This document shows, piece by piece, positions 6,014 to 52,694 of a DNA stretch of 64,000 nt. The DNA lies in contig JAFLJQ010000098.1 in the NCBI GenBank assembly GCA_022712915.1, positions 1 through 64,000 of the forward strand, in the 5' to 3' direction. Under the pieces are notes generated by a model. It did no database searches and was not told the origin of the DNA. It was given only the letters and a program-made list of their open reading frames with translations. The stretch comes from Gammaproteobacteria bacterium (lineage in GTDB: Bacteria; Pseudomonadota; Gammaproteobacteria; UBA6429; Thiohalophilaceae). The first letter of the stretch is position 1. Each line of letters starts with the position of its first letter. The translations under genes were made by a program, and so were the position numbers.

Positions 6014-6032
6014 GGTTTTATCCTCACGTACA

Positions 6033-7127: not shown

Positions 7128-7142
7128 GATTTACTCTTTCAC

Positions 7143-8141
7143 TTATTTGCTGGCTTTACGAATCCCTACACTACCATTAGATAAATCAAGTTTAATTTTG
7201 CGAGAGTTACTACCACCGGTATCAATCTCTTTAATATGAAACTTATAAAATTTCAGCAATTCTTTTACTTTTTCAATATTTCTATCACCAATTTTCATAC
7301 CTTCTGATTTTTTCATGCCAGGAAACATATCAGATCCCCCATAGATATGAACTTCGTATTCATTCGTTTTAGTAGCATATTTGGCTGCTTGTTTAACAAA
7401 TTCAGCAATCGCACAATCACCATATTTCATATCACATTTACCACCCTGTGATTCGGGCAATATAATGTGGCACATACCACCAATCATAGCCTTTGAATGC
7501 CAAAGTGTAGCTGCTACACAGGAGCCCAACAATGTCGACACAATGGTTGGTGCCCGACCAAAATACAGTTCCCCAGGATGCAAAAATATTTCCATTGCAT
7601 CAACATCGGACTTGACCGACTCTTTTTTGATAAGCGGCGTCTTTTTTATTATTTTTTTATAAACACGGCCATCATGCAAATCAAATTTTATTTTACGTGA
7701 ACCATTTACATCAATATCTAGCTCTGTGAGATCAAACTCATTCAATTTCAAAAAATTCTTTATTTTTTCAATATTCTTGCCACCACCCTTATTAATCGAA
7801 TCATCCTGCATTGCATCTTCACCATCCTTCTTACCATAAACCCGAACCTCATACTCTCTTGCAGGGGTTTTATATTTACCGGCTAGTTTGGCAAATTCAG
7901 CGATAGCACAATCACCATAATGCATGTCGCATGACCCCTCAGGTGAATCCGGCACCACAATATGGCACATGCCACCAATTTTTGTTTTCGGATGCCAAAA
8001 CGTAATTGCTATACGGGAGTGCAACATGGTTGAAATAATTGCCGGAGCTGCGCCGAAATAAAGCTCACCAGACTGGATAAATATTTCCATTGCATCAACT
8101 GCTGCATCATTACCTTGACGTTCATCCGCGATTAATGCCAT
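7143..8141 (-). CDS. cheD: Tandem double CheD protein; N-terminal copy lacks the catalytic Cys
   Basis: CheD deamidates receptor glutamines and, in Bacillus and Thermotoga, binds CheC. This protein is twice the usual length (332 residues), with two full CheD domains: about 15-160 and about 178-325. Domain 2 has an intact active site: STLLGSCVAATLWH (Cys208) and GGMCHIILPE (His225). In domain 1 the equivalent segment reads STMLHSRIAITFWH, so Cys is replaced by Arg43, although GGMCHIVVP keeps His60. Both domains retain the MEIF...GELYFG opening and a C-terminal GSRKIKFDL or NSRKIKLDL strand. Domain 1 is therefore probably a non-catalytic regulatory or binding module. Intragenic duplication is inferred. 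Confidence 0.9.
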   Translation of the reverse strand: MALIADERQGNDAAVDAMEIFIQSGELYFGAAPAIISTMLHSRIAITFWHPKTKIGGMCHIVVPDSPEGSCDMHYGDCAIAEFAKLAGKYKTPAREYEVRVYGKKDGEDAMQDDSINKGGGKNIEKIKNFLKLNEFDLTELDIDVNGSRKIKFDLHDGRVYKKIIKKTPLIKKESVKSDVDAMEIFLHPGELYFGRAPTIVSTLLGSCVAATLWHSKAMIGGMCHIILPESQGGKCDMKYGDCAIAEFVKQAAKYATKTNEYEVHIYGGSDMFPGMKKSEGMKIGDRNIEKVKELLKFYKFHIKEIDTGGSNSRKIKLDLSNGSVGIRKASK

Positions 8142-8238
8142 ATCCTGTTTGCAACCTTATCATTAACAATTAATGGAATAACAACATTTGTCTCTATTGC
8201 CAATACCTATTCCCATATATACAAATAATTCAATAACC

Positions 8239-8808
8239 TTATTTCATAGCAGTTTCGACCAATGTTGCCAATTCAGTTACAGAAAACACCCTATCCATAT
8301 CCAGTAAAATAATAAACTCTTCATCTACATTACCCATACCGGAAATATAATCACTTTTTATTTTAGTACCAAATGAAGGTGTTGCTTCGATATTATCTTC
8401 ATGTATGCCCACCACTTGTTCGACTGCATCTACGACAAAACCAATATCCATAACTTCACCTTCATCTTCCATTTCAGTAATAATCACACAAGTTCGTCGA
8501 GATAGTTCACTACCAGCATCACACTCAAGACGTTCAGCCAAATCAACAATCGGCACCACATTACCGCGTAAGTTAAGCACGCCACGGATACTGGGAGGGG
8601 TCATAGGGATACGGGTAATACCACCGTATTCTATAATCTCCTTGATACGGGTAATCTCAACACCATAGGCTGTGTTATTCAGGCGAAATGTCAGAAACTT
8701 GTCCCCTTCCATGTCTCGATCGATTCCACCTTCGATAAGTTCTTCACCCAATATACCCTCAGCAAGTTCATTCAGAGACGGTGCACTGGATCTATTCAAT
8801 TCAGACAT
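8239..8808 (-). CDS. cheW: CheW-type coupling protein (first copy)
   Basis: A 189-residue protein with an acidic N-terminal leader of about 35 residues and one CheW domain: FLTFRLNNTAYGVEITRIK, EIIEYGGITRIPMTPP, IRGVLNLRGNVVPIVDLAER, VVDAVEQVVGI and FIILLDMDRVF. It bridges MCP signalling tips and CheA. It follows the large Cache-type MCP gene by 52 bases and precedes the double cheD gene, so it is co-transcribed in the che operon. Confidence 0.94.
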   Translation of the reverse strand: MSELNRSSAPSLNELAEGILGEELIEGGIDRDMEGDKFLTFRLNNTAYGVEITRIKEIIEYGGITRIPMTPPSIRGVLNLRGNVVPIVDLAERLECDAGSELSRRTCVIITEMEDEGEVMDIGFVVDAVEQVVGIHEDNIEATPSFGTKIKSDYISGMGNVDEEFIILLDMDRVFSVTELATLVETAMK

Positions 8809-8860
8809 GGTCTTTGCCTCATTTTATATTTCTCTGTAAATTAAAATTTCCACTCAACAA

Positions 8861-11437
8861 TTAGAAACTTTCAAAATCTTTTTCATTGATCGGGCTATCA
8901 CCTGGCTTATCACCTTGCTCAGCCAGTTTATCAATATGGTAATTGGTCTTTTGATGGTGCACAGGTTCAACCTTAATAGCATTATCATCCGGGGTGATCC
9001 TATGTGGTGTGATGACTCGGGCTTGCACAACAGGCTGTTGTTTGGCCTGTTGTCTAACAGGCTCAGGCTCTGGAGTAGCCAACCTGGTTTGTTTGACTGC
9101 CACAGGTTTCGGTTTAGACGGCGGTTTAGACACAAGCTCTTTGGCCAACGAGTGATTGCTCACAGTGGCTGATTCATGATTTTTAGTGACACTACCTGCC
9201 ACCTCCTTGACTTGCGTCTGACGCAATGCACCACTGCCAGAATTCAACTTGAAGAAACCAATGATTTCCTGTAATTGAGCTGCCTGAGAATTCATTTCTT
9301 CTGAGGTGGCCGCAAGCTCTTCTGATGAAGAAGCAGCCTGTTGCGCGCCCTGATCCAGTTGCCCCATGGCACTGTTCACCTGCTCCACACCTGAGGTTTG
9401 TTCTTCTGATGCAGCAGTGATCTCCTGTACCAGAGTCGCGGTCTTCTGAATTCCCGGCACAATTTCCTGAATCAAACCACCGGCCTTCTCAGCAATCTGC
9501 ACACTACTACCGGCCAGCTCACTAATCTCGGCTGCCGAAGTCTGACTGCGTTCTGCTAATTTTCGCACTTCATCGGCCACCACCGCAAAGCCCTTACCTT
9601 GTTCGCCGGCTCGAGCTGCTTCAATTGCAGCATTCAAGGCCAACAAGTTAGTCTTGTAAGCAATGTCTTCGATCAGACTGATGCGACTGGCAATCGACTT
9701 CATGGCCTCTACCGTATCGCCCACTGCCTGACCACCTTCTACCGCCTGCTTGGATGCCGTGCCGGCAATGGCATCGGTGGCACGGGCATTTTCTGTGTTC
9801 TGTGTAATGGATGCGTTCATTTCTTCCAGTGAGGCACTGGTCTCTTCAACACTGGCGGCCTGCTCGCTGGCCGCCTGGCTCAGACTTTGAGATGAGGCGC
9901 TGACTTGTTGGGAAGCCGCCGCAATATTTTCCACAGCCGACTTAACCTCAAGTAAAACACCCTGGACCTTTTCAACAAAACCATTAAAGGAACGTGCCGT
10001 CTGACCCAACTCATCATGACCAAAGTCCGGCAGGCGTTGCGTGAGATCACCATCACCGTCACGCAAATCATCCACCGCTGCCAACATTTGATTCAGTGGT
10101 CTGGCTATCACAACTCTGGCAAAGACCGTGGCGATAAAGGTTACAATGACCAACACTATCAGGGCAGTAACCACAATCAGGTTGCGCATATTGTAGACCG
10201 GTGCAAAAGCCTCGGCTTCATCGACCTCGGCCATCATGACCCACTTCATATCCTGGATCTTGAGCGGACGGTAAGCGGATAAAACCGGGATATCACGATA
10301 ATCATTAAAAATTTCTGTATGAGTCTTACCATTCATTGCCGCCTGGGTTCCTTGCGTCTTGACCGGCTGCAGGCCAATCGCCGTGCCTTGTGCCTTTATT
10401 TGATTAATGACACCCTTTTCCAGGCCCACTTCGTCCATCAGTTTGAAATAACCTTCCTTGTCTTCGATCAGTAAACGGGATTGGCTACGCAGGGTGAAAT
10501 CATCCGCCACAATGTAAGTCTCGCCACTATCCCCTAAACCAATGTCCTTCCACCTGTTATTGCTAGTCATAACATTATTGATCTTGTCCACCGGCATCTG
10601 AAATACCAATACACCGATTTTTTTACCATGATCAAAAATCGGTGAGGCTATAAACGAAGCCGGTGCCATATACGAGGCCGGATAGGGTTTGAAATCAACC
10701 GCCCTGGCAAAGCTGTCTGAACTAGCACTGACGGCCTGGCGGAAGACCTCGGCAAAATTGGTATTGCTATAAGGACCGTTCTTCAATGAAGTTGCATAAT
10801 CAGCTTCTTTAAAGACACTGTAGACAATCTCACCCGTGCGATGGTCAATCAGGAAAATATCGTAATAACCAAACTTTTCCAGATAGTTACGAATGATCGG
10901 ATGATACTCTGCATGATATTTACTATAAGCACTGGCATCACTGGCGCGATCAAGCTGATGTTTGGAGCCTAGAGGATTAGGATTTTGTGTAATATACAAA
11001 CTCTGCAGAATCAGAGCGGTATCACTACTCGGCATAAATTCACTGCTCGACGCACTATGGCCACTACGTTCTTTATACAGTGGCAGAAATTTTGTATTGT
11101 AAAAATTGGAAACATGGGCCTTGTAGGCACTGGCGTCCTTTATATTCAGATCTGATTTAACATCGTTAAAGCTCCGTTTAAAGTCACGCATGGCAAACTT
11201 AATCGTCTCACTTTCAGAGAAAGTCAACACCTGGTCACGGATGCTAACGTAATAATCCTCGATCTGCGTAGCCTTGATCTCACGCACCGCAGTCAGCTTG
11301 TTAAATGACTCCTGCTGCAAGGCAGTTTGAGACACGTCATAACTAACAATGGCAACAGATAAAATAGCCAGCAGGCTGGCACTTAAAAATGCCACCAGCA
11401 CTTTATTCCCTACTTTGAGGTTCATAAAAAACTTCAT
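8861..11437 (-). CDS. Methyl-accepting chemotaxis protein with large Cache-like sensor and CheR-tether-like tail
   Basis: A transmembrane chemoreceptor of 858 residues. TM1 lies at about 10-30. A periplasmic region of about 390 residues, apparently a Cache-type sensor ([32 protein letters not shown]), precedes TM2 ([20 protein letters not shown]). A HAMP domain follows, then the signalling hairpin with tip [21 protein letters not shown] Pro/Gln-rich linker of about 130 residues ends in ...NEKDFESF. The last five residues, DFESF, fit the aromatic-xx-aromatic pattern of the CheR/CheB-tethering pentapeptide (NWETF in enterics). The frame opens six codons earlier, but GGAG lies 6 bases before ATG at 11437 ([10 protein letters not shown]), so that start is chosen. 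Confidence 0.92.
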
Positions 11438-11480
11438 TCTAACTCCATAAACCACTGCATTTTAATTGTGTAAACAACCA

Positions 11481-13706
11481 TTAATGTAAAATTGGAGCTT
11501 CATCATTTGATGGTTTTGAACTGTCGGCACGATGCATACGTCCATACATTTTTTCGGCTTGTTCGGTAGCACGTTGCACCAAATTAGGCACATCCAAAAT
11601 AACCGCCACATCACCTGTCCCAAGAATTGTGGCTCCACTGATGCCCTTGAGCTTTTGCAGGATCTTGCCCATCGGTTTGATCACCGTTTGAAATTCACCC
11701 AACAATTCATCAACGACAAATCCAGCCTTCTGGTTACCAAATTGCACCACCACAATATTCTCACGGTTGACTTCACTGTTGCGGTCATTGAAAAATTCCC
11801 GCAGACGCAAGAAAGGCAAAACCTCACCACGAAGATTGATATAACTCTGTACCGCAACCTCTTTTTGTTCTTCTGCATTGAGTTCAATACATTCATGTAT
11901 AGTATCCAGCGGAATAACATAACTGGAACCACCCACACCCACCAGAAATCCATCAATAATGGCGAGGGTAAGGGGCAGACGGATACTGACTGTTGTTCCT
12001 TCACCTAATTTACTGTCGATATCTACCGCACCACGCAAGGCTTCAATGTTTCGCCTCACTACATCCATGCCCACTCCTCGACCCGACAGGTTAGTGACCT
12101 GCTCTACCGTGGAAAAACCTGCTTCAAAAATCAGATGGTAAACATCATTGTCCGACATATTCACTTCATCCACATTCATGCCACGTTCTTTTGCCTTGGC
12201 AAGAATTTTTTCTCTTGAAAGACCACGGCCATCATCAGTTACCTCAATAACAATACTGCCCGAATCATGGAAAGCATTAAGCTTTAAAATACCCTGTTCA
12301 GATTTACCCGCGATACGACGTTCATCTGCAGATTCAATACCATGATCCATGGAATTACGCACTAGATGCATAAGCGGGTCACCGATGCGTTCCACCACGG
12401 TTTTATCCAGCTCAGTATCAGCACCACTGATTTCTAGTTTTATGGATTTGCCAAGCTCCTTACTCACATCACGTACCACACGTTGAAAACGGGTAAAGGT
12501 TTCACCGATCTGAACCATGCGCAGATTAAGAGCATTATCACGAATATCGTCTACCAAGCGGCCCACACTGGACATGGACTCTAGCAATTTTTCATCGCCC
12601 AATTTATGGGCAAGCAAATTACTGGATGCTCCGGCAATCACTAACTCACCCACTAGATTAATTAGTTTATCCAACTTACTGGCATCAACACGAATGACTC
12701 GATTGGCCGACTTGGTCTGATCCATGATCCTTTCCTGCTTGGCCAGGGCCGCATCAACCACAGACTGTTTAACGACATGTTTATCAACCAGCAGTTGACC
12801 AATTTTTATCTCCATTTCACCACTTGCCTGACTCAGCACATCAGAAAGTAGTTGACTTTGTTTAAGCAACACTTCCTGTAATTCTGCATCGGTCACCGCA
12901 CCACACTTCACCAGAATTTCGCTCAGACGCATTTCTTCATCGGGCAACTGTTCGATCATCTCAGCAAACAGGTCATATTTACTGGTCGGTGGCAAAATAT
13001 GGATATCACTCATTTCCTTGACGAATTCAAATACCGATTCAAGCTGCTGACAGTCCACTTCACCTTCAAAATTAACCTCAAAAGAAAGGTAGCAGTGTTC
13101 TGGTTCGGTTATTTTCAGACTAGGTAATTCGCCATACAGGGTTGTTACGCTAACCTCACCCATGCGACGTAAATAACGAATAAACGAAATCGGATCCATA
13201 CCATTCTGCAGAACCTCACGATCAAAGTGCATTGAGATATGCCAATTATCAAACACCTCAGAATGACCTTTGTCTATTAAGTTACTGTCATCCGCCTGAC
13301 CAGCAATCGTGGCATGGGGATCAAGAAACGGGCTTAACTGCGTAATCAGTGACACACCTTCCTGACGAATTTCATCGCTCAATTCTTGATCACCGTTAAT
13401 AGCAAGCTGCACGAGTACACCCATATGATCCCGGCAAGAGAGTAAGACAGCAATCAAATTACTTTCAATCTGAGTGTCACCCACACGGACACGATCAAGC
13501 ACATTCTCAACTATATGGGTAAACTCAACAATATTATCAAAACCAAAAACACCACCAGTACCTTTAATAGTATGGGCCGCCCGAAAGATGGCATTGATCA
13601 AGGTATCATCGTCAGGTTCATTTTCCAGGCGTAATAAAGACTCTTCCATCAGATTAAGTAATTCTGATGCCTCATGCTCAAACGATTCTACTGCACTATC
13701 ACCCAT
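11481..13706 (-). CDS. cheA: Chemotaxis histidine kinase CheA
   Basis: Soluble hub kinase of the chemoreceptor array (741 residues). The HPt domain has the phosphorylated His45 in FRAAHTIKGTGG. A long middle region (about 130-330) may contain the response-regulator docking domain. Dimerisation and kinase domains follow, with VGELVIAGASS, LMHLVRNSMDHGIES (N box), VTDDGRGLSREK and FSTVEQVTNLSGRGVGMDVV. The C-terminal CheW-like P5 domain includes IPLDTIHECIEL and INLRGEVLPFLRLREFF. It passes phosphate to CheY (14071) and CheB. It is preceded by STAS and cheY genes in the same operon. Confidence 0.96.
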   Translation of the reverse strand: MGDSAVESFEHEASELLNLMEESLLRLENEPDDDTLINAIFRAAHTIKGTGGVFGFDNIVEFTHIVENVLDRVRVGDTQIESNLIAVLLSCRDHMGVLVQLAINGDQELSDEIRQEGVSLITQLSPFLDPHATIAGQADDSNLIDKGHSEVFDNWHISMHFDREVLQNGMDPISFIRYLRRMGEVSVTTLYGELPSLKITEPEHCYLSFEVNFEGEVDCQQLESVFEFVKEMSDIHILPPTSKYDLFAEMIEQLPDEEMRLSEILVKCGAVTDAELQEVLLKQSQLLSDVLSQASGEMEIKIGQLLVDKHVVKQSVVDAALAKQERIMDQTKSANRVIRVDASKLDKLINLVGELVIAGASSNLLAHKLGDEKLLESMSSVGRLVDDIRDNALNLRMVQIGETFTRFQRVVRDVSKELGKSIKLEISGADTELDKTVVERIGDPLMHLVRNSMDHGIESADERRIAGKSEQGILKLNAFHDSGSIVIEVTDDGRGLSREKILAKAKERGMNVDEVNMSDNDVYHLIFEAGFSTVEQVTNLSGRGVGMDVVRRNIEALRGAVDIDSKLGEGTTVSIRLPLTLAIIDGFLVGVGGSSYVIPLDTIHECIELNAEEQKEVAVQSYINLRGEVLPFLRLREFFNDRNSEVNRENIVVVQFGNQKAGFVVDELLGEFQTVIKPMGKILQKLKGISGATILGTGDVAVILDVPNLVQRATEQAEKMYGRMHRADSSKPSNDEAPILH

Positions 13707-39469: not shown

Positions 39470-40795
39470 TTGGACAACCATCAACACAATTCAGAATACG
39501 TACGCTGGTTTCGTAATTCCTCTCCGTACATCAATGCCTTTCGCGGTCGAACCTTCGTGGTCGCCTTCGGTGGAGAAATGCTCACAGATGCCCAGTTTGC
39601 ACCTCTGGTTCATGATATAGCCCTGCTCAACAGCCTCGGCGTCAGGCTGGTACTGGTGCACGGGGCACGGCCACAAATCGAACAACGACTCAATGAAAGA
39701 GGAATCGAGCTCAAATATGCAAATAGCCTGCGCATCACAGATGACGAAGCCCTCAAATGCGTCAAAGAAGCTGCAGGCAGTATGCGGATCGAAATCGAAT
39801 CCCTGCTCTCCATGGGCGTCAGCAATACGCCCATGGACAGTGCAGACATCCGGGTTGTATCCGGCAATTATGTTACGGCTCAACCTCTGGGCATCCGTGA
39901 TGGAGTAGATTATCTGCATACCGGTGAAGTCAGAAGTATCGACGCCGAGGCCGTCCACTGGCAACTGGATGATGGAGCCATCGTATTATTGTCCCCCATC
40001 GGCTACTCACCCACAGGTGAAGTTTTTAACCTCAGCGCCGAAGATATCGCCACAGCAGCCGCCATTCAATTACAAGCAGACAAACTCATTTGCCTGATAG
40101 ATAGCGAAGGCATCAATGATGAGCAACAACGGCTACTGCGTGAACTAACCTTGCCAGAAGCCCAAAAACAACTAACTCAAAACCAGCCTGCACTGGCTCC
40201 TGATGTTATCCGATACCTGCGCAGTGCCATTACTGTATGCCAAGCCGGTATCCCTCGCACTCACCTTATCAGCCGGCATATCGATGGTGGCATCCTGCTG
40301 GAACTGTTTACCCGCGATGGTATTGGCCTATTAATCACCGCCGAAAATTTTGAAGATACTCGCCTAGCGGCAATCGATGATGTGGGTGGATTACTAGAAC
40401 TCATCGCCCCTCTAGAAAAAAATGGCACATTGATGCGGCGGTCACGTGAACGGCTAGAAATGGAAATCGAGCATTTCATCGTCGTCGAACGTGATGGTAT
40501 GATCATCGCCTGCGCCGCACTCTATCCCTATAAAAAGGAAAAAATAGCCGAGTTGGCCTGCTTGGCGGTGCACCCGGACTACCGAAAAAAAAATCGTGGC
40601 GATATATTATATAACTACCTGGAAAAACAGGCCAAACAACGGGGTCTGCAAAAATTATTTGTGCTTACCACCCGCACAGCACACTGGTTTCAGGAACGGG
40701 GCTTTAATGAAATCGATATAAAACAACTTCCGATAGAAAAACAAGCCTTATATAACTATCAACGCAACTCCAAAGTATTTATGAAAAAAATATAA
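39470..40795 (+). CDS. argA: N-acetylglutamate synthase (kinase-like + GNAT)
   Basis: Acetylates glutamate as the first step of arginine synthesis. The 441-residue protein has an amino-acid-kinase-like regulatory domain (about 1-290; VRWFRNSSPYINAFRGRTFV, LVLVHGARPQIEQRL, SPIGYSPTGEVFNL, GIPRTHLISRHIDGG) and a C-terminal GNAT domain (about 295-440; CAALYPYKKEKIAELACLAV, HPDYRKKNRGDILYNYLE). The start is TTG, which the conserved HxHN...VRWFR opening requires; the ribosome site is weak. The next gene, dam, follows almost immediately, so the two are probably co-transcribed. Confidence 0.95.
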   Translation: MDNHQHNSEYVRWFRNSSPYINAFRGRTFVVAFGGEMLTDAQFAPLVHDIALLNSLGVRLVLVHGARPQIEQRLNERGIELKYANSLRITDDEALKCVKEAAGSMRIEIESLLSMGVSNTPMDSADIRVVSGNYVTAQPLGIRDGVDYLHTGEVRSIDAEAVHWQLDDGAIVLLSPIGYSPTGEVFNLSAEDIATAAAIQLQADKLICLIDSEGINDEQQRLLRELTLPEAQKQLTQNQPALAPDVIRYLRSAITVCQAGIPRTHLISRHIDGGILLELFTRDGIGLLITAENFEDTRLAAIDDVGGLLELIAPLEKNGTLMRRSRERLEMEIEHFIVVERDGMIIACAALYPYKKEKIAELACLAVHPDYRKKNRGDILYNYLEKQAKQRGLQKLFVLTTRTAHWFQERGFNEIDIKQLPIEKQALYNYQRNSKVFMKKI

Positions 40796-40801
40796 GTGGT
40801 T

Positions 40802-41620
40802 ATGGCAAAATCAAGCAACACTAAACCTTTTCTAAAATGGGCCGGTAACAAATACCGCATTATAGATCGCATCCAGCGCCTGTTGCCAAAAGGTGAACGC
40901 CTACTTGAACCCTTTATCGGTTCTGGAGCCGTCTTTCTGAATACCGATTATGATCGCTACCTGTTAACCGATAACAATCCAGACCTAATTAATCTCTACC
41001 AACTCCTTAAAGACGAAGGTCAGGATTTCATTCATTACTGCAAACGATTTTTTGGCGACAGATACAATACCGAAGATTGTTATTACAAACGTCGCACTGA
41101 ATTCAACAAGACAAAAAACATACGCCGCAAGGCCGCGTTATTTTTATATTTCAACCGTCATGGCTACAATGGCTTATGCCGTTATAATAAAAAAGGAGGT
41201 TTCAACGTCCCCTTTGGTCGTTACAAACGGCCCTATTTTCCCGCCAAGGAAATGCTCGCATTTCACCAGAAAGCCCAGCATGCAGAGTTCTGTCTAATCG
41301 ACTTTTCCCATAGCATGCAACAAGCCCAGAAAGGTGATGTCATCTACTGTGATCCCCCCTATTATCCTCTCACCCCTTCATCCAACTTCACCGCCTATAG
41401 CCCAGGTGGTTTCAGTGAAAACCAGCAACGCCAATTGGCCGAAATCGCCCGCGATTGCCGACAACGCGACATTCCCGTACTAATTTCAAATCACAATACA
41501 AGTTTCACACTCGAAGTTTACAACGATGCCAAACTTGAGCATTTCAAGGTCAGACGTTACATCAGTTGCAATGGCAACAAACGAGGGCAGGCAGGAGAAC
41601 TGTTGGCATTGTTTGCCTAA
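40802..41620 (+). CDS. dam: DNA adenine methylase (GATC type)
   Basis: Class D12 N6-adenine methyltransferase of 272 residues. The SAM motif FLKWAGNKYRIIDRI is at the N-terminus, followed by LLEPFIGSGAVFLNT, YLLTDNNPDLINLY, FLYFNRHGYNGLCRYN, catalytic VIYCDPPYYPL, ISNHNT and a closing KRGQAGELLALF. It closely follows the Dam family, so GATC methylation is expected. A GTG immediately after the argA stop could also serve as start; ATG at 40802 is preferred. The gene probably depends on argA transcription and translation. Confidence 0.94.
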   Translation: MAKSSNTKPFLKWAGNKYRIIDRIQRLLPKGERLLEPFIGSGAVFLNTDYDRYLLTDNNPDLINLYQLLKDEGQDFIHYCKRFFGDRYNTEDCYYKRRTEFNKTKNIRRKAALFLYFNRHGYNGLCRYNKKGGFNVPFGRYKRPYFPAKEMLAFHQKAQHAEFCLIDFSHSMQQAQKGDVIYCDPPYYPLTPSSNFTAYSPGGFSENQQRQLAEIARDCRQRDIPVLISNHNTSFTLEVYNDAKLEHFKVRRYISCNGNKRGQAGELLALFA

Positions 41621-44336: not shown

Positions 44337-45071
44337 TCAAATATACCCCATGCGCACGGCTAATTTCTCACGAGCTTCTATGAGCAAGTCTCCCCATGAG
44401 ACTTGACGCCGCTCCAGTGGTGCTGAGATAGAGAGACCTGCTACGGGCCGTTGACGTTCGTCGAAGAGTAATACACCAATACAACCAACACCCATTTCTG
44501 CCTCTTCGTCATCCAGGGCAATACCTATTTTGGCGACTTGCTGGCAGTGGGCGATGAGCTCTTCGACATCGATAATGGTATTTTCCGTATAGCGGCGTAG
44601 ACCATTGCGCAGAGCATAAGCTCGAATCGCCCCTTCCCCAGCCATACCCAACATCAGTTTACCCACCGCAGTAACGTGCAAGGGTGCACGACTGCCGATA
44701 ATCTGCTCGACACGCATCATGCGTTTGGAGACTTTACGGCCGACATAGATCACCTGATCCCCCTCTTGCTGGGTGAGGTTGACCGACTCCCCTACCTGGT
44801 CGCGCAATGCCGCCATAATCGGTGCTGCGGTCTCGACCAAATCCACCTGCCCTGAGGCGCTACGCCCCAGCGCCACCAGTTTTGGCCCTAGGTGATAACC
44901 ATCACCCACCCGCTCCACAAAGCCATTTTCAATCATGGAGGTCAAGATACGATACGCCGTTGAGGTGTGTAGCCCGGTCTCGGCAGACAGTATTTTTAAG
45001 GTAACGGGCTCGTTGTATCTAGAGATGGCCTCTAATAAGTGTGTCAGTCGGTTGATTACCTGAATCGTCAC
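44337..45071 (-). CDS. IclR-family transcriptional regulator
   Basis: A 244-residue regulator with an N-terminal winged helix-turn-helix (residues about 5-65; VTLKILSAETGLHTSTAYRI and LTSMIENGFVERVGDGYHLG) and a C-terminal effector domain (about 75-240; PLHVTAVGKLMLG, GIALDDEEAEMGVGCIGVLL, AGLSISAP). It is divergent from the ThDP-enzyme operon with a 150-bp shared region, so it is the likely regulator. That region holds an imperfect palindrome, CGATACCGTATTG, near 45139-45151, as a possible operator. The ligand is unknown, presumably the operon's substrate. Confidence 0.9.
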   Translation of the reverse strand: MTIQVINRLTHLLEAISRYNEPVTLKILSAETGLHTSTAYRILTSMIENGFVERVGDGYHLGPKLVALGRSASGQVDLVETAAPIMAALRDQVGESVNLTQQEGDQVIYVGRKVSKRMMRVEQIIGSRAPLHVTAVGKLMLGMAGEGAIRAYALRNGLRRYTENTIIDVEELIAHCQQVAKIGIALDDEEAEMGVGCIGVLLFDERQRPVAGLSISAPLERRQVSWGDLLIEAREKLAVRMGYI

Positions 45072-45221
45072 TATTGCTCCTTATTGTCGATGCTGGATTT
45101 TGAAATATTGCCGCTTTTATTCTCGCATTGTGAAAACGATACCGTATTGCAAAATATTACCACTTACCTTACCTTTAACACAATCCTGACTACTATTATT
45201 AACCTTTCATGAGGAGCCACC

Positions 45222-47432
45222 ATGAACACAGCAACAGCCACCCCCACACCATTCTATGAAGGCATTCAACACTTCAACGAGGCGTGGCCGAATTACCAGC
45301 AATACGCCAGCAAAGCGGCTATTGCCCAAGGGTCGAATGCGATCAGTGATAGCAGCGATAAAGGTGCAGCCTATCAAAGTCAGTTAATGGCCGACGCCTT
45401 GCGTTACCTCACCTTGCAGGTCTGTGGTTCTAAGGGTTCAGGCCATCCTGGTGGTTTTGCCAGCTCGGCTGACGCCTATGCCGCACTGGTGATGTTGGGC
45501 CATACCAATATCGTTACCGAGGTGGGGCATCATGCACCGGGCTTTTATAGCGCGATGTTTTTAGATACCTCGCTGGAAGAGATGGGCATCAGCACCGTGA
45601 CACAAATGATGGCCCGATTCCGCGAACAGGAGGGCCTGCTCGGTCATCTGTCCGGTGCCATTCCCGGTTTGCTGGCCCCTGCTGGTCCACTGGGACAAGG
45701 CCAACATTTTGCCATGGCCGGTGCCTTGCTGAATCCCGGCACCTTGTTCCCCTTCACCCTGGGTGATGGTGGTATGGGCGAACCCTACATACTCTCGGCG
45801 ATGATGCATTTCAACACCGCCTACCCAGACTCCACTAATTTCTTACCGACCTTGGTATGGAACGGTTATAGCCAGGAGCATCACTCCATGGTTTCTCGCA
45901 TGAGTAATGAGGAGATGACCGCCTACTGGACAGGCCACGGATTTAAAGAGGTAGTACTGGTCGATGCCAAAGATTTTGATGATGTAAACCAAGAAGGGGC
46001 CTATGTGGATAGCACTAGGTTCTCTTTCGAACAACGCCTAGCCTTTAGCCAGGCTATTTTAGAAGGCATGGATAAAGCTGCACAATTGGCCCTCAACGGT
46101 ACGTTGACCTGCTTCATCATTAAACAATTGAAGGGTGCGGGTGTGCATGCAACGGGAGCGAAATCGCATAACCTCTACCCCACCGACACCCTGGAGGCTG
46201 AACATATTGTTGCAGGTCTTAAACGCCGTGCAATCAATACGGAGGCATGGGAGCTGGTGCGCGAAAACTTCGTGCGTGCCGGTGGTGGTCCTGCGGTAAA
46301 AACCGTGGTCACCGAATTCGAGCGGGCACTGCCAGAATTAGGTGAACTGCCTTTCACTGAATTTACCAAAGGCGAAAAAGCGGTACCCTCTACCACCATG
46401 GGTATCTTGGTAGGCGCGGTGGGTTTAGCCGATCCGGGTTATATTGTTACCAATGCCGATGGCAATGAAGCATCCGCGATGAAAAACATCAATGATGTAT
46501 TGAAGATTCGCCACCCAACGGTTGATCCACTGTATAACCAGGAACCCAATGGCCAGGTCTATGAGCCACTGAACGAAGATGCCTGCGCAGGTTTAGCCGG
46601 TGGTCTGGCGCTGTTTGGTTCACGCTCCATCTGGTTGTCCTATGAAAGTTTTGCGATTAACGGCTGGCCGATTATTCAAACAGTCGGGCAGGCTATGGCT
46701 GAGCTACGTCGCACCACTCCCTCGGTGGTGACCATGTTTACTGCCGGTGCCTTGGAACAAGGTCGTAACGGCTGGACTCATCAACGTCCCGAAATCGAAA
46801 ACTATTTTGCAGCGATGATGCGCAATGGTAATGCCTATCCGTTGTTTCCGTGTGATGCCAATGCCATCCAGGTGGCCTATGACTATGCTACCAACAGTAG
46901 CAACAAGGTGATGACCATTATTGCATCCAAGAGCCCACTACCCATTTACATGAGCCTGGACGAAGCACGTGACGCGATGCAAAAAGGGGCGGCAACCATT
47001 TATGAAAGTACTTCGGGCGATAAGGGCACGGTGGTCTTTGCTGTCACCGGCGACATGGTTTTTCTACCCGTGTTTGAAGCCAAAGATCGACTCGAAGCCG
47101 AGGGTTATAAGGTGCGCATCGTGGCCGTGGTTAATCCACGTCAACTCTATCGCGCTACGGATGTTGCATGGTCAACGGTGACCGCTGGCGAAAACAGTTT
47201 CATGCGTGACCAGGACTTTAACCAGCTGTTTGATGCGGATCTGTTATTGGCGGTTAGCGGCGGCCCTAGTGCACCACTGGAACCCGTATTGTTGCGCACC
47301 CGCGCACCCAATCGTGATGTTGTTTGTTGGAAACGTGGTGAGACCACCGCCACCCCTGGCGAGATCATGGGCTTTAACGGCATCACCGCTGAGATCATGT
47401 GTGAACGCGCCGCGGCCTTGATTTCTGGTTAA
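45222..47432 (+). CDS. Divergent phosphoketolase/transketolase-like ThDP enzyme
   Basis: A 736-residue protein. The N-terminal ThDP half has SKGSGHPGGFASSADAYAAL, GHHAPGFYSAMF, APAGPLGQGQHFAMAGALL (transketolase-like), then FTLGDGGMGEPYILSAMMHF and FLPTLVWNGYSQEHHSMVSR. These last two follow the phosphoketolase layout (GDGExETGP, LPILHLNGYK). The second half, WTHQRPEIENYF, LFPCDANAIQVAYDYA, VVFAVTGDMVFLPV and GETTATPGEIMGFN, parallels phosphoketolase FSHQDPG, LPPDANTLL and TTTPFDMVVLN. The phosphoketolase IHEGGELG motif is missing, so acetyl-phosphate formation cannot be assumed. AGGAGCC precedes the start. It leads an operon with a DUF1537 kinase and GlcDEF. Confidence 0.8.
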   Translation: MNTATATPTPFYEGIQHFNEAWPNYQQYASKAAIAQGSNAISDSSDKGAAYQSQLMADALRYLTLQVCGSKGSGHPGGFASSADAYAALVMLGHTNIVTEVGHHAPGFYSAMFLDTSLEEMGISTVTQMMARFREQEGLLGHLSGAIPGLLAPAGPLGQGQHFAMAGALLNPGTLFPFTLGDGGMGEPYILSAMMHFNTAYPDSTNFLPTLVWNGYSQEHHSMVSRMSNEEMTAYWTGHGFKEVVLVDAKDFDDVNQEGAYVDSTRFSFEQRLAFSQAILEGMDKAAQLALNGTLTCFIIKQLKGAGVHATGAKSHNLYPTDTLEAEHIVAGLKRRAINTEAWELVRENFVRAGGGPAVKTVVTEFERALPELGELPFTEFTKGEKAVPSTTMGILVGAVGLADPGYIVTNADGNEASAMKNINDVLKIRHPTVDPLYNQEPNGQVYEPLNEDACAGLAGGLALFGSRSIWLSYESFAINGWPIIQTVGQAMAELRRTTPSVVTMFTAGALEQGRNGWTHQRPEIENYFAAMMRNGNAYPLFPCDANAIQVAYDYATNSSNKVMTIIASKSPLPIYMSLDEARDAMQKGAATIYESTSGDKGTVVFAVTGDMVFLPVFEAKDRLEAEGYKVRIVAVVNPRQLYRATDVAWSTVTAGENSFMRDQDFNQLFDADLLLAVSGGPSAPLEPVLLRTRAPNRDVVCWKRGETTATPGEIMGFNGITAEIMCERAAALISG

Positions 47433-47486
47433 CCACAACCGCGCTCCCTCCTTCTATATAGAAGGGGGCATTAAGGAAGAATGACC

Positions 47487-48830
47487 ATGACACAAACAAA
47501 AATTATTGTATTGGATGACGACCCTACCGGCTCACAAACCGTACATGGCTGTTTATTACTGACCCGCTGGGATATCAATAGCCTTTGCATCGCGTTACAG
47601 GATGAAGCACCACTGTTTTTTGTGCTCACCAATACACGCGGCATGGATGCACAAAAGGCTGCCACACTCACTCGTGAGGTGTGCCAGAACCTGCAAGTTG
47701 CCTTAAAAAAATTGGCCGCTGACGGAATCGAAATCAATCCCATTTTAGTTAGCCGTTCTGACTCCACACTGCGTGGCCACTACCCGGTGGAAACCGATGT
47801 AATTGCGGAAGAATTGGGGCCCTTTGATGCACACTTTTTGGTGCCGGCCTTTTTTGAAGGCGGACGTATCACCCGTGATGCCAACCATTATTTAGTTGTC
47901 GATGGTAAAGAGATTCCCGTACATGAAACCGAGTTTGCCAAGGATTCGGTGTTTGCTTTCAGCCACAGTTTTTTACCCGATTATGTAGAAGAAAAAACCG
48001 CCGGGTGCATCAAGGCCGATCAGGTTGAACAATTTTTATTAGCCGATGTAAGGGGAGATTGTTCGGCACGTCTCAATACACTCAAAGACAATGTCTGTTG
48101 CAGCGTGGATGGTGAAACCCAGGCTGACTTAGACCATTTTGCAAAACAACTCAGCACTGCGGCACAAGCAGGCAAACGTTTCCTGTTTCGCAGCGGCGCA
48201 AGCCTGCTCACTGCCCTGGCAGCCTTACCTAAACAACCGGTTGCCCCTGAGCAGATGGCATTTTATGTGCGGGATGAAAAACCTGGCGCGATTATCGTCG
48301 GTTCACACGTGCAAAAAACCACTTCACAACTTAATCAACTTTTACAACAGAGTGACATTCAAGGCATCGAAGTGGATGTGGCACGTATTGCCGAAGAGCG
48401 GGAAACACTCTTACAAAAAACCTTACAGCAGGCCGATGCAGCCCATGCAAAAGGACTCACGCCCGTTATCTATACCAGCCGTAGCGAGTTAAGTTTTGCA
48501 ACACAGGCATTACGGCTGGCCTTTGGCGAGTCCGTATCCGCCTTGTTAATGGATGTGGTGCGTGGCCTACCAAAAACCATTGGATTCCTGATCAGCAAAG
48601 GTGGCATCACCTCCAATGATGTATTAAGCAGCGGTTTATCACTGCGTCAATCCCGCGTACTGGGACAGGTTTTGCCTGGTTGTTCGGTGGTGCGCTGTCC
48701 GGCCGACCACGCACGCTACCCCAACTTACCGGTGGTGATATTCCCCGGCAATGTGGGGGATGACAACGCCCTGGCCGTCGCCTACCAACGCCTGACACAG
48801 AGCAACAAGGAGGCGCTTGCCACTGCGTAA
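47487..48830 (+). CDS. DUF1537 four-carbon acid sugar kinase family protein
   Basis: A 447-residue ATP-dependent kinase of the family that includes the tetronate kinases (OtnK, DtnK) and 3-oxo-isoapionate kinase. The N-terminal domain begins KIIVLDDDPTGSQTVHG and has LFFVLTNTRGMDAQKA, LVSRSDSTLRGHYPVETDV and VPAFFEGGRITRDANHY. The C-terminal nucleotide-binding domain has GAIIVGSHVQKTTSQL, GFLISKGGITSNDVLSSGL and VVIFPGNVGDDNAL. Substrate cannot be read from sequence; a C4 sugar acid is most likely. AAGGAAG precedes two close ATGs, and I chose the second (47487). It lies 54 bases after the ThDP gene. Confidence 0.88.
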   Translation: MTQTKIIVLDDDPTGSQTVHGCLLLTRWDINSLCIALQDEAPLFFVLTNTRGMDAQKAATLTREVCQNLQVALKKLAADGIEINPILVSRSDSTLRGHYPVETDVIAEELGPFDAHFLVPAFFEGGRITRDANHYLVVDGKEIPVHETEFAKDSVFAFSHSFLPDYVEEKTAGCIKADQVEQFLLADVRGDCSARLNTLKDNVCCSVDGETQADLDHFAKQLSTAAQAGKRFLFRSGASLLTALAALPKQPVAPEQMAFYVRDEKPGAIIVGSHVQKTTSQLNQLLQQSDIQGIEVDVARIAEERETLLQKTLQQADAAHAKGLTPVIYTSRSELSFATQALRLAFGESVSALLMDVVRGLPKTIGFLISKGGITSNDVLSSGLSLRQSRVLGQVLPGCSVVRCPADHARYPNLPVVIFPGNVGDDNALAVAYQRLTQSNKEALATA

Positions 48831-48898
48831 TCAGTATAAGGATATCGTTTTAATAACGAGTTACTTTTTTTAGTTATTTTTTAAGGGAGGCAAGGCTT

Positions 48899-50401
48899 AT
48901 GCATACTGAGTTATTTACCATAGCAACACCGCCCGAACCAACGTTGGGTAAACCAGCATTGGTAGAAAAACTGCGTCAGTTTCTCACTAGCGATGCCGTA
49001 TTGTGTGACGAAGAATTGTTGCGCCCTTACGAATGTGATGCCTTGTCGGCCTATCGACACCTGCCAATGATTGTAGTGCTGCCCAGCACCCTTGATCAGA
49101 TACAACAGATCATGCGGCTCTGTTATCAGCATAATGTGCCTGTGATTGCCCGCGGTGCGGGCACCGGTTTATCCGGTGGCGCCACTCCGGCTGGTGATGG
49201 TGTGGTGATGAGTCTGGCCAAGTTTATTTCTATTCTTGAGGTCGATCCCATTGCACGCACCGCAGTGGTACAACCCGGCGTTCGAAACCTAGCTATCTCA
49301 CAAGCGGTGGCTGCCCATGGGCTCTATTACGCACCCGATCCCTCTTCACAAATTGCCTGCACCATTGGCGGTAATGTGGCAGAAAATTCTGGTGGTGTGC
49401 ACTGCCTGAAATATGGTTTAACCGTGCACAATGTGCGCAAGGTAAAACTGGTTACTATGGACGGTGAGTTGATTACCCTGGGTTCCGATTCATTGGATAG
49501 CAGTGGTTATGATTTACTGGCACTGATCAACGGTTCCGAAGGTATGCTCGGTGTTGTGGTGGAAGTCACGGTCAAGCTAACACCAATTCCAGAACGGGCA
49601 CAAGTGGTGCTGGCGGCATTTAATGATGTAGAAAAAGCCGGTGGCGCAGTGAGTGACATCATCGCCGCTGGGATTATTCCCGGTGGTTTGGAGATGATGG
49701 ACAAACTGGCCGTTCAAGCAGCAGAAGATTTTGTCCATGTTGGATATCCCACCGATGCAGAAGCGATATTGCTGTGTGAAATTGATGGTACCAATGAAGA
49801 GGTATCAGAGCAGATACGTATCGTGCATGAGGTGATGCATCAATCTGGTGCTACAGAAGTTCGTACTGCACGTGACGAAGAAGAGCGCCAGGCGTTTTGG
49901 AAAGGACGCAAGGCAGCCTTCCCAGCAGTGGGACGCCTTGCCCCTGATTATTACTGCATGGATGGCACCATTCCACGCAAGCACCTACCTTATATTTTGC
50001 GCCGTATGGCCGAGCTCTCTATTGAATATGACCTACGTGTTGCCAATGTTTTTCATGCCGGTGATGGCAACCTGCACCCGCTGATTTTGTATGATGCCAA
50101 CCACCCTGGTGAACTTGCCCGCACCGAAGAGTTTGGCGGAAAAATACTGGAACTATGCATTGAAGTTGGTGGCAGTATTACTGGCGAACACGGTGTCGGC
50201 ATAGAAAAATTGCAACAGATGCATTTGCAATTTAATTACGAAGAGCTGACCCAATTTCATGCGGTTAAACATGTCTTTGACCCTAAGGGTCTGCTCAATC
50301 CAGGCAAGGCCGTGCCAACACCAAAACGCTGCTCTGAATACAAACAACTGCCTTCGCAAAACGAAGACAAACATCAACATAAGGCGTGTACCTCCTCATG
50401 A
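48899..50401 (+). CDS. glcD: GlcD-type FAD 2-hydroxyacid oxidase subunit
   Basis: A 500-residue FAD-linked oxidase (PCMH/vanillyl-alcohol oxidase fold). FAD-binding motifs are PVIARGAGTGLSGGATPAGD, IGGNVAENSGGVHCLKYGLT and GSEGMLGVVVEVTVKLTP. The C-terminal cap has RVANVFHAGDGNLHPLILYD and GGSITGEHGVGIEKL. With GlcE and GlcF it oxidises glycolate or a related D-2-hydroxy acid and passes electrons to quinone. A GGGAGG ribosome site lies upstream, and the stop overlaps the glcE start. The kinase and ThDP partners suggest that here the substrate may be a larger sugar acid. Confidence 0.92.
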   Translation: MHTELFTIATPPEPTLGKPALVEKLRQFLTSDAVLCDEELLRPYECDALSAYRHLPMIVVLPSTLDQIQQIMRLCYQHNVPVIARGAGTGLSGGATPAGDGVVMSLAKFISILEVDPIARTAVVQPGVRNLAISQAVAAHGLYYAPDPSSQIACTIGGNVAENSGGVHCLKYGLTVHNVRKVKLVTMDGELITLGSDSLDSSGYDLLALINGSEGMLGVVVEVTVKLTPIPERAQVVLAAFNDVEKAGGAVSDIIAAGIIPGGLEMMDKLAVQAAEDFVHVGYPTDAEAILLCEIDGTNEEVSEQIRIVHEVMHQSGATEVRTARDEEERQAFWKGRKAAFPAVGRLAPDYYCMDGTIPRKHLPYILRRMAELSIEYDLRVANVFHAGDGNLHPLILYDANHPGELARTEEFGGKILELCIEVGGSITGEHGVGIEKLQQMHLQFNYEELTQFHAVKHVFDPKGLLNPGKAVPTPKRCSEYKQLPSQNEDKHQHKACTSS

Positions 50402-51462
50402 ATCAGGATATTAGCCAAACATTACAGCAACAGATACTCAGTGCCCTAGAAACAGGCTCACAGCTGCAAATCCAGGGCGGTGGCAGTAAACATTTTCTTG
50501 GTCACATAAGTAAATCAACGCCATTACAGGTTAGTGCTCATCAGGGCATCATCAGTTACGACCCGGTTGAGCTGGTTGTCACTGCCCGGGCAGGTACACG
50601 ACTGAGCGAATTAGAAAACACCTTGGCTGAACAGAATCAAATGCTGCCCTTTGAACCACCGCACTTTGGCCCACTAGCCACCCTCGGCGGCACCATTGCC
50701 TGTGGCCTTGCTGGGCCTAGTCGTTCTTTTAGCGGATCAGCACGGGATTATGTGCTGGGCGTAAAAATGATCAACGGCAAAGGTGAAATTCTTAACTTTG
50801 GTGGCCAGGTGATGAAAAATGTTGCGGGTTATGACTGCTCACGTTTGATGGCGGGGGCAATGGGTACACTGGGTGTATTATTAGAAGTGAGTCTTAAAGT
50901 GCTACCCAAACCAGCCGCAGAAATAACATTGGTGCAAAGTAAAACACCAGAGCAAGCGATCGATGCCATGAATCATTGGTCAGGTAAATCCCTACCTCTG
51001 AGTGCGGGCTGTTATGTAAACGGCCAACTTTATCTTCGCCTTAATGGCGCTAAAACTGCCGTCGACGGTGCACATAAAGTCATCGGTGGTGAATTGCTCA
51101 ATGACAGTGCTGAGTTCTGGACATCCATTAAGGAACACCAACATACATTTTTTCAATCCACGCTTCCTTTATGGCGTCTGTCTGTGCCTGCCAAAACACC
51201 TGTTTTAACATTAAGCGGAGAGAATTTAATCGATTGGTGCGGCGCACAGCGCTGGTTATTCAGTGATCATGATGCCGACCATATCCGCAAAGATATCTCT
51301 GAATTGGGTGGTCACGCCACCTTGTTCCGCCGTCAAAGCGAGCTGATGGCTGACACCTATCAACTGCCTGACACGAACATTATGCAACTACACCAGCGCC
51401 TTAAGTTGGCCTTTGATCCTGCCGGAATTTTTAATCCCGGCCGCCTCTACCCTGGTTTATAA
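50398..51462 (+). CDS. glcE: GlcE-type FAD-binding oxidase subunit
   Basis: A 354-residue second FAD-binding subunit of the glycolate-oxidase-like complex: LQIQGGGSKHFLG (PCMH opening), PPHFGPLATLGGTIACGLAG, VKMINGKGEILNFGGQVMKN, VAGYDCSRLMAGAMGTLG and a closing FDPAGIFNPGRLYPG. The ATG at 50398 overlaps the glcD stop in an ATGA arrangement, indicating translational coupling; the longer frame from a GTG at 50386 is less likely. Confidence 0.92.
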   Translation: MNQDISQTLQQQILSALETGSQLQIQGGGSKHFLGHISKSTPLQVSAHQGIISYDPVELVVTARAGTRLSELENTLAEQNQMLPFEPPHFGPLATLGGTIACGLAGPSRSFSGSARDYVLGVKMINGKGEILNFGGQVMKNVAGYDCSRLMAGAMGTLGVLLEVSLKVLPKPAAEITLVQSKTPEQAIDAMNHWSGKSLPLSAGCYVNGQLYLRLNGAKTAVDGAHKVIGGELLNDSAEFWTSIKEHQHTFFQSTLPLWRLSVPAKTPVLTLSGENLIDWCGAQRWLFSDHDADHIRKDISELGGHATLFRRQSELMADTYQLPDTNIMQLHQRLKLAFDPAGIFNPGRLYPGL

Positions 51463-51476
51463 AATACGGATCACTC

Positions 51477-52694
51477 ATGCAAACCAAGCTATCAGACTCC
51501 ATAAAAATGACGGCCATCGGCAAAGAAGCCGATGCAATTTTACGCAGCTGTGTGCACTGTGGATTCTGCACGGCTACCTGTCCCACCTATCAACAACTGG
51601 GCGATGAACTGGATAGCCCGCGTGGTCGCATCTATTTGATCAAACAGATGCTGGAAGACAATACGGTCAGCAGAAAAACACAAACACATTTAGACCGCTG
51701 CCTGACTTGTCGTGCATGTGAAACCACCTGTCCATCCGGTGTTAAGTATGGTCGACTAATTGAGATAGGACGACACTACATTGATCAAAAAGTGTCACGA
51801 AAATTATCTGACCGCCTGACCCGCAAAATTTTACGCAGTATTCTTCCCTACCCTAAACGATTAAAACCGTTGCTCAAGATCTCGCAGTTGCTCAAACCTT
51901 TTTTGCCTGCTCCATTAAAAAATAAAGTACCAAAACAACAGACTCAATCTATTTTGCCTAATACCGAGCATGCACGCAAAATGATCGCCCTGGGCGGCTG
52001 CGCCCAATCTGTGATCAAACCCGGCACTAATTCCGCTGCCGCTACAATTTTGGATAAACTTGGCATCTCTTTAGTCACCCCCACGGCAGCTGGATGCTGC
52101 GGTGCAGTCAGTTATCATTTGAATAAAAACGAAGAAGGGTTGGCATTCATGCGCCACAACATCGACACCTGGTGGCCACTAATCGAATCGGGTTATGAGG
52201 GTATAATGATCAGTGCCAGTGGCTGTGGTGCGATGGTAAAAGAATACGGCGACGCTTTAAAATACGACCCGGCTTATGCAGAAAAAGCCGCCCGTATCTC
52301 ATCCTTGAGCAAAGACCCGTGCGAAATAATCCTTAACGAAGATTTGTCGACACTCAAACTGAACAAAAAAGATAAAAAAATTGCCTTTCAAACACCTTGC
52401 ACCCTGCAACATGCACAACAACTTAATGGCCGAGTTGAAGCCCTGCTCACACAATTGGGCTTTACACTCACCAGCGTAACAGATGGACACCTCTGCTGTG
52501 GCTCCGCAGGTACTTACTCCATTTTACAGCCGAAGATGTCACAATCACTGCTCGACAACAAACTCGGCACTCTGATGGCCGAGCAACCCGATGTTATCGC
52601 TACCGCCAATATCGGCTGCCAGATGCATATGGAAACTAAATCCACGGTGCCGGTTAAACACTGGTTAGAGATTATTGCTGATGCCATGGCGTAA
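51477..52694 (+). CDS. glcF: GlcF-type iron-sulfur subunit
   Basis: A 405-residue electron-transfer subunit with two 4Fe-4S motifs, CVHCGFCTATCPTY and CLTCRACETTCPSG, and two CCG domains (AAGCCGAVSYHLN and LCCGSAGTYSILQP). It takes electrons from the GlcD/GlcE flavins to membrane quinones. It ends the operon; the downstream 90 bases show no clear hairpin. Confidence 0.94.
   Translation: MQTKLSDSIKMTAIGKEADAILRSCVHCGFCTATCPTYQQLGDELDSPRGRIYLIKQMLEDNTVSRKTQTHLDRCLTCRACETTCPSGVKYGRLIEIGRHYIDQKVSRKLSDRLTRKILRSILPYPKRLKPLLKISQLLKPFLPAPLKNKVPKQQTQSILPNTEHARKMIALGGCAQSVIKPGTNSAAATILDKLGISLVTPTAAGCCGAVSYHLNKNEEGLAFMRHNIDTWWPLIESGYEGIMISASGCGAMVKEYGDALKYDPAYAEKAARISSLSKDPCEIILNEDLSTLKLNKKDKKIAFQTPCTLQHAQQLNGRVEALLTQLGFTLTSVTDGHLCCGSAGTYSILQPKMSQSLLDNKLGTLMAEQPDVIATANIGCQMHMETKSTVPVKHWLEIIADAMA

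Follow-up and report, generated by a model that had tools for sequence, protein, structure and literature searches.

The window analysed here is a 64,000-nucleotide stretch of a gammaproteobacterial contig (JAFLJQ010000098.1). The subject of this report is an operon within it that encodes a protein with the motifs of a thiamine diphosphate (ThDP) enzyme, a DUF1537 kinase and the glycolate dehydrogenase subunits GlcD, GlcE and GlcF, together with a divergent gene for an IclR-family regulator. The original prediction, made from the sequence alone, had read these genes as a candidate sugar-acid pathway. Every gene that it named lies where it had been placed, the motifs that it quoted are present in the translations and family searches agree. 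The tie of the locus to RuBisCO and the conserved operator at 45121-45155 had escaped it. The features are as follows.

44337-45071, minus strand: IclR-family regulator, divergent from the operon (Pfam IclR domains)
45121-45155, plus strand: 35-bp operator TCTCGCATTGTGAAAACGATACCGTATTGCAAAAT, proposed IclR site (motif match, 47.0 bits)
45222-47432, plus strand: ThDP enzyme of 736 amino acids, new clade of the phosphoketolase superfamily; proposed glyoxylate ketol-transferase
47481-48830, plus strand: DUF1537 (SBD_N/NBD_C) kinase of the DDDPTG / SRSDSTLRGHYP subgroup; proposed oxo-tetronate 4-kinase
48899-50401, plus strand: GlcD, FAD subunit of glycolate dehydrogenase (Pfam FAD-linked oxidase domains, NCBIfam)
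50398-51462, plus strand: GlcE, glycolate dehydrogenase subunit (ATGA overlap with GlcD; NCBIfam)
51477-52694, plus strand: GlcF, iron-sulphur subunit of glycolate dehydrogenase (NCBIfam)

GlcE and GlcF exceed the NCBIfam equivalog cut-offs and GlcD falls 1-12% under (561 against 567.9 bits and 789.5 against 897 bits). The list of open reading frames starts GlcE at GTG 50386; the start used is most likely ATG 50398, which overlaps the GlcD stop as ATGA. A second GlcD and GlcE set is present elsewhere in the same genome (G000:C1, L126/L174), with a protein of ~520 residues between the two and the operator match absent.

The ThDP protein scores 41.7, 41.9 and 28 bits against the Pfam models XFP_N, XFP and XFP_C (cut-offs 23.7, 22 and 23.4). 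It lies below the NCBIfam phosphoketolase models (best 115.5 bits, range 84-116, with cut-offs of at least 777) and below the transketolase model TIGR00232 (40 bits against 682). Scanning the GTDB species genomes gave 214 confirmed relatives, of which the best 80 loci were kept. The carriers among these 80 are, by title, nearly all proteobacterial and include Gallionella, Candidatus Nitrotoga, Thiobacillus, Sulfuriferula, Nitrosospira, Thiogranum and Sedimenticola. The family is tight, with members about 68-86% identical to one another and, in an 18-member alignment, 68-78% identical to the window protein, whereas the phosphoketolases of the same genomes, the window genome's own included, are only ~27% identical to it. 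A phylum-wide search at E 1e-25 returned full members of the family only, one of them from another class, and a search of plasmids for relatives returned phosphoketolase-type proteins only. In the tree, which is one maximum-likelihood search with long deep branches, the family forms its own clade (99/98) beside a clade (95/92) made up of canonical XFP and a small set of XFP-like proteins, and transketolases lie far outside. A Foldseek search with the predicted structure (pLDDT 79, pTM 0.81) placed phosphoketolases at the top, followed by transketolases. A canonical phosphoketolase or transketolase identity is ruled out by the model scores and the tree placement, and the earlier view of the protein as an uncharacterised phosphoketolase-like enzyme holds, since the tree places it outside the sampled clades of both. 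By sequence and phylogeny it is the founder of a previously unclassified family, apart from transketolases and from two phosphoketolase clades.

A second phosphoketolase-like clade, represented by L169:3281-5668 on Novosphingobium plasmid pLA4 and by L103, is also distinct. The Novosphingobium member is annotated as xylulose 5-phosphate 3-epimerase. The clade adjoins genes for ribose-phosphate pyrophosphokinase and thymidine phosphorylase and may serve nucleoside breakdown.

Every sampled row of the ThDP family keeps H75, H103, H142, H316, E452, H520, Y474, Q513, N516 and K570, and the cofactor motif GDG(181-183)...N214 is invariant in these rows. The XFP catalytic residues H64, H97, H142, H320, E479, H553, Q546 and N549 are matched by H75, H103, H142, H316, E452, H520, Q513 and N516. 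The family therefore resembles phosphoketolase (XFP, PF09364/PF03894/PF09363) in fold, ThDP motif, catalytic Glu and His and the Gln and Asn of the QN-loop. It differs in identity, in length (736 against ~800 amino acids), in its separate clade, in having Arg in place of H548, in its family-specific basic residues and in a changed Ser-Asn-Arg (SNR) stretch. This stretch aligns to the XFP/transketolase phosphate site and in phosphoketolases is presumably the part that binds the substrate phosphate. With transketolase the protein shares the overall fold, the GDG...N cofactor motif, the GPLGQG motif and the catalytic Glu/His set. However, Q513 and N516 agree with the phosphoketolase QN-loop and not with transketolase, and N516, Y474 and K304 are phosphoketolase-like residues where the E. 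coli transketolase has D469 and the aligned Phe and Ile. Residues found in the family only include H104, H309, K314, R430, H431, R515, R522, R640, R644 and R705. The protein is probably an active ThDP enzyme of changed specificity, in which the basic residues R515, H309, K314, R430 and R522 could hold a carboxylate such as that of glyoxylate.

Across 81 loci the kinase family was found in 65, the IclR family in 62 and GlcD, GlcE or GlcF in 27-32, and many of the loci lacking the kinase or IclR gene are short contigs. The order IclR-ThDP-kinase recurs over tens of genera, more distant carriers are alike, and one genome from another class (G451) has the complete IclR-ThDP-kinase-GlcDEF set. In subsets of the loci the neighbours are GlcG, glycerate 2-kinase, tartronate semialdehyde reductase (TSR), an aminotransferase of the glyoxylate type, TRAP or branched-chain-type transporters, and malate synthase of the A or the G form, the latter (1204 bits, cut-off 565) together with LutABC-type genes. 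These neighbours handle glyoxylate or related acids, which counts for a glyoxylate role. The conserved neighbourhood and the operator rule out accidental adjacency, in agreement with the original prediction that the genes form a coherent pathway unit. Two further observations concern the neighbourhood. In the Candidatus Nitrotoga loci L066 and L069 the DUF1537 kinase gene is present twice in the vicinity of the ThDP gene. Four loci (L003, L004, L008 and L136; e.g. L008:4679-5398) have nearby a 239-residue fumarylacetoacetase/MhpD-like protein for which no NCBIfam match was found at E 1e-30, and in L003, L004 and L008 it adjoins malate synthase G.

A 35-bp motif (consensus TTTCACATTATGAAAACGATTcTGTATTGTGAAAT, 44.7 bits) was found in 50 of 55 intergenic regions between the IclR and ThDP genes and in none of 40 shuffled control loci. 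The window copy at 45121-45155 scores 47.0 bits, against 6.8 bits for the next best match in the 64 kb. Further matches lie nearly all at the IclR/ThDP junction, where in some loci the motif is present two or three times. A generic scan for promoters gave no useful information. Between 45088 and 45165 the window also contains a pair of imperfect direct repeats, each of 29 nt and 49 nt apart. The second repeat overlaps the operator, and the first may be a degenerate second operator site. The best NCBIfam model for the window regulator is BhcR, at 146 bits and under the cut-off of 350, and its effector domain aligns with those of the E. coli glyoxylate-responsive AllR and IclR. It thus resembles BhcR of the BHAC pathway (the beta-hydroxyaspartate cycle) and the glyoxylate-binding AllR and IclR in its family and, by alignment, in a glyoxylate-type ligand domain. 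It differs from BhcR in falling under the equivalog cut-off and in governing other genes, and its ligand is putative.

There is one clear exception to the junction placement. Genome G113, which shares its family group (f78) with the carrier G327 but has no ThDP family member of its own, has the motif (49.4 bits) between an IclR gene, 58% identical to that of the window, and a Gcl-Hyi-TSR-GlcF operon (L171, G113:C1:414000-433000, positions 6028-13383). The Gcl protein scores 972 bits against a cut-off of 711, and the operon adds hydroxypyruvate isomerase, TSR and GlcF. On the other side of the IclR gene lies a BhcA-like (glyoxylate-type) aminotransferase. Given the same operator, the same type of regulator and the same glycolate dehydrogenase partner, joined to other glyoxylate-consuming enzymes, the ThDP-kinase pair looks like a non-orthologous replacement of the Gcl branch in phosphoglycolate salvage. 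It is mainly because of this swap that we call the pair a glyoxylate sink, and we rank the regulatory evidence as the strongest. That the pair has this role in the phosphoglycolate salvage of Calvin-cycle bacteria is, from such genomic evidence, very probable.

Glyoxylate is a by-product arising when RuBisCO mistakenly uses oxygen. In a class sample of 322 genomes, RuBisCO was found in 30 of the 31 carrying the ThDP family and in 132 of 291 non-carriers (Fisher p = 7.5e-9, uncorrected for shared ancestry; the carriers span 27 genera). The lone carrier lacking it is an assembly 86% complete and 6% contaminated. Among 58 near relatives, RuBisCO is present in 13 of 14 carriers and 25 of 44 non-carriers, and the window genome has two RuBisCO genes. 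A glycolate-type GlcD (>500 bits) is present in 27 of the 31 carriers. The glyoxylate sinks surveyed were Gcl, TSR and malate synthase. Gcl was found in none of the 31 carriers, the best score in the window genome being 360 bits against the cut-off of 711. TSR-like genes occur in 8/31, over the cut-off in 4, and malate synthase in 8/31; the window genome has neither. Obligate co-occurrence with TSR or malate synthase was not found in these counts. Malate synthase shows no anticorrelation with the family among RuBisCO genomes (8/31 against 8/30) and so is uninformative in that respect.

The same counts bear on two other readings of the ThDP enzyme. It might be a second phosphoketolase that converts sugar phosphates to acetyl phosphate and so supplies malate synthase with acetyl-CoA to remove glyoxylate; the kinase would then have a side role. 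The conserved QN-loop-type Q513 and N516 and the malate synthase adjoining the cluster in L003, L004, L008 and L137 fit this, but the window genome has a canonical phosphoketolase (G000:C267) and no malate synthase, few carriers have the latter and the near-constant kinase partner is left unexplained, so that we consider it improbable. Alternatively the enzyme might act as Gcl does, joining two glyoxylates to tartronate semialdehyde and CO2; the isomer hydroxypyruvate would be phosphorylated by the kinase to 3-phosphohydroxypyruvate and reduced to 3-phosphoglycerate. The pair would then directly replace Gcl under the same operator and retain more of the carbon, hydroxypyruvate is one carbon shorter than its homologue 2-oxo-tetronate, and TSR or glycerate kinase is near some clusters. 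However, TSR-like genes are infrequent in the carriers (though TSR would be bypassed in this scheme with the kinase), the enzyme has the sugar-handling residues of phosphoketolase and transketolase and stands outside the Gcl/acetolactate synthase superfamily, and the DUF1537 substrates known so far have at least four carbons. This scheme is unlikely, though less so than a second phosphoketolase.

The kinase gives 186 bits for SBD_N and 138 bits for NBD_C and carries the motifs DDDPTG / SR(S/G)DSTLRGH of the 2-OtnK-like subgroup. Against E. coli YgbK, of the 3-oxo-tetronate kinase type, it has merely a 180-residue match (E 0.05). A phmmer search against solved structures gave no match, and a profile search gave remote DUF1537-like entries only. 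It is 33-39% identical over its full length to plasmid kinases of Deinococcus, Rhodococcus, Arthrobacter, Niallia, Priestia and Ligilactobacillus, whose neighbours are LtnD- or GarR-like dehydrogenases, joined in the first three genera by class II aldolases. Identity to the Arthrobacter kinase, which adjoins LtnD- and FBA-like genes and whose activity is inferred from context, is 34% over 482 amino acids. The earlier remark on the use of aldolases or decarboxylases by characterised DUF1537 pathways is still useful because the closest group adjoins class II (F_bP_aldolase) enzymes. In the three-step L-threonate route, 2-oxo-threonate is converted to dihydroxyacetone phosphate (DHAP) by 2-OtnK and the F_bP_aldolase-type 2-OtnC (PMC12540250). 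The window locus is like this route in its DDDPTG-subgroup kinase and in the class II aldolase that is sometimes adjacent; it is unlike it in lacking LtnD, in having the ThDP enzyme and GlcDEF instead and in its lithoautotrophic hosts. The gene immediately downstream of the kinase encodes a class II aldolase in L003, L010 and L139 (G282), and in L105 and L014 a class II aldolase adjoins IclR. These adjacent aldolases are not established as clear 2-OtnC orthologues; they form their own group (58-60%) with ~32-40% identity to those of Arthrobacter, Rhodococcus and Deinococcus. In G282 a 731-residue open frame looked like a fusion of kinase and aldolase, a reading that was rejected because the two are adjacent genes.

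The kinase relationships might be taken to favour catabolism of C4 sugar acids, a scheme near to the original prediction. GlcDEF would oxidise erythronate or threonate to 2-oxo-tetronate, the kinase would form the 4-phosphate and the ThDP enzyme would decarboxylate, or transfer from, the 2-oxo acid. The nearest kinases do belong to predicted 2-oxo-tetronate operons, ThDP enzymes do decarboxylate 2-oxo acids and the gene order is compatible. The RuBisCO link, the glycolate-type GlcD, the Gcl-Hyi-TSR swap and the malate synthase neighbours all favour glyoxylate instead, and the genus-named carriers are mostly lithoautotrophs. We therefore give C4 catabolism as little weight as a second phosphoketolase, and a general sugar-acid pathway is most likely not what the locus encodes; RuBisCO, GlcD, the neighbouring genes and the swap indicate glycolate/glyoxylate salvage.

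The best explanation for that salvage is a glyoxylate-assimilation module replacing Gcl-Hyi-TSR. Glycolate, from RuBisCO oxygenation or uptake, would be oxidised to glyoxylate by GlcDEF. The ThDP enzyme would transfer a two-carbon ketol from a ketose phosphate (fructose 6-phosphate (F6P), xylulose 5-phosphate (X5P) or sedoheptulose 7-phosphate) to glyoxylate, giving 3-oxo-tetronate and an aldose phosphate. The kinase would place a phosphate on the C4 hydroxyl of 3-oxo-tetronate, and the 4-phospho-oxo-tetronate would yield DHAP and CO2 via a class II aldolase-type enzyme or spontaneously. The net reaction would be glyoxylate + X5P + ATP to glyceraldehyde 3-phosphate + DHAP + CO2 + ADP, with no reductant and no nitrogen shuttling. 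IclR, which probably senses glyoxylate, would govern the operon via the 35-bp operator. The original prediction had GlcDEF acting on a hydroxyacid, followed by the kinase and lastly the ThDP enzyme; C2 transfer, one of its named options, is kept but the order is changed: the ThDP step, with glyoxylate as substrate, probably precedes that of the kinase.

Ketol transfer is favoured because a single scheme then links glyoxylate with the ThDP family, the kinase and the aldolases, in that 3-oxo-tetronate is a tautomer of the substrate expected for the kinase group and its phosphate would decarboxylate to DHAP. The neighbours of the kinase subgroup elsewhere, LtnD-like dehydrogenases and class II aldolases, also argue for it, this being the make-up of the L-threonate route, whose end product is DHAP. 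Several points weigh against this scheme. The Gcl swap is known from one genome only and the substrates are predicted. Where the enzyme departs from transketolase, Q513, N516, Y474, K304 and K570 are of the phosphoketolase type, making acyl-phosphate formation possible, and since the residues aligned to SNR are changed the ligand would differ in some way from X5P or F6P. The closest kinases are predicted to act on 2-oxo-tetronate rather than 3-oxo-tetronate. Most loci lack a linked dedicated decarboxylase, and some class II aldolase is present in 61/61 genomes, hence uninformative. With one CO2 lost for each glyoxylate, the route would be less economical than that through Gcl. On balance, from gene conservation, the operator, the RuBisCO link, the swap, the intact ThDP site and the kinase subgroup, we put the module with its proposed chemistry at roughly 0.55. 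The exact sequence of ketol transfer, then phosphorylation and decarboxylation, taken by itself, we regard as evenly balanced. A natural photorespiration bypass, in which the new ThDP family moves a C2 ketol from Calvin-cycle sugar phosphates to glyoxylate and the kinase and an aldolase-type decarboxylase return DHAP without Gcl, glycine or malate synthase, is put forward tentatively, at slightly under even odds.

Phosphoglycolate recycling by chemolithoautotrophs is little studied, a gap noted in published work on Cupriavidus necator, which reports the glycerate pathway and the malate cycle there (PMC7486775). The proposed module is like the glycerate pathway (Gcl-Hyi-TSR) as a glyoxylate sink after GlcDEF in Calvin-cycle bacteria, that pathway being under the same operator and IclR type in G113. 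It is unlike it in that carriers lack Gcl, and mostly TSR, and have instead an unrelated ThDP enzyme and a DUF1537 kinase. The kind of process, phosphoglycolate salvage, is known; the candidate route and enzyme would be new. A literature search, which reached little subscription work, found no description of the ThDP family or the pathway. In relatives of iron, sulphur, ammonia and nitrite oxidisers, where Gcl is absent and malate synthase mostly so, the locus offers a candidate route that is both conserved and regulated. If correct, it would give a new ThDP reaction and a function for an enzyme family of many genera, and a short bypass, free of nitrogen shuttling and reductant, relevant to synthetic photorespiration.

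Elsewhere in the window, an N-acetylglutamate synthase-like gene (amino-acid kinase and GNAT domains) lies at 39470-40795 and is directly followed, at 40796-41620, by a gene for a D12-class adenine DNA methyltransferase.

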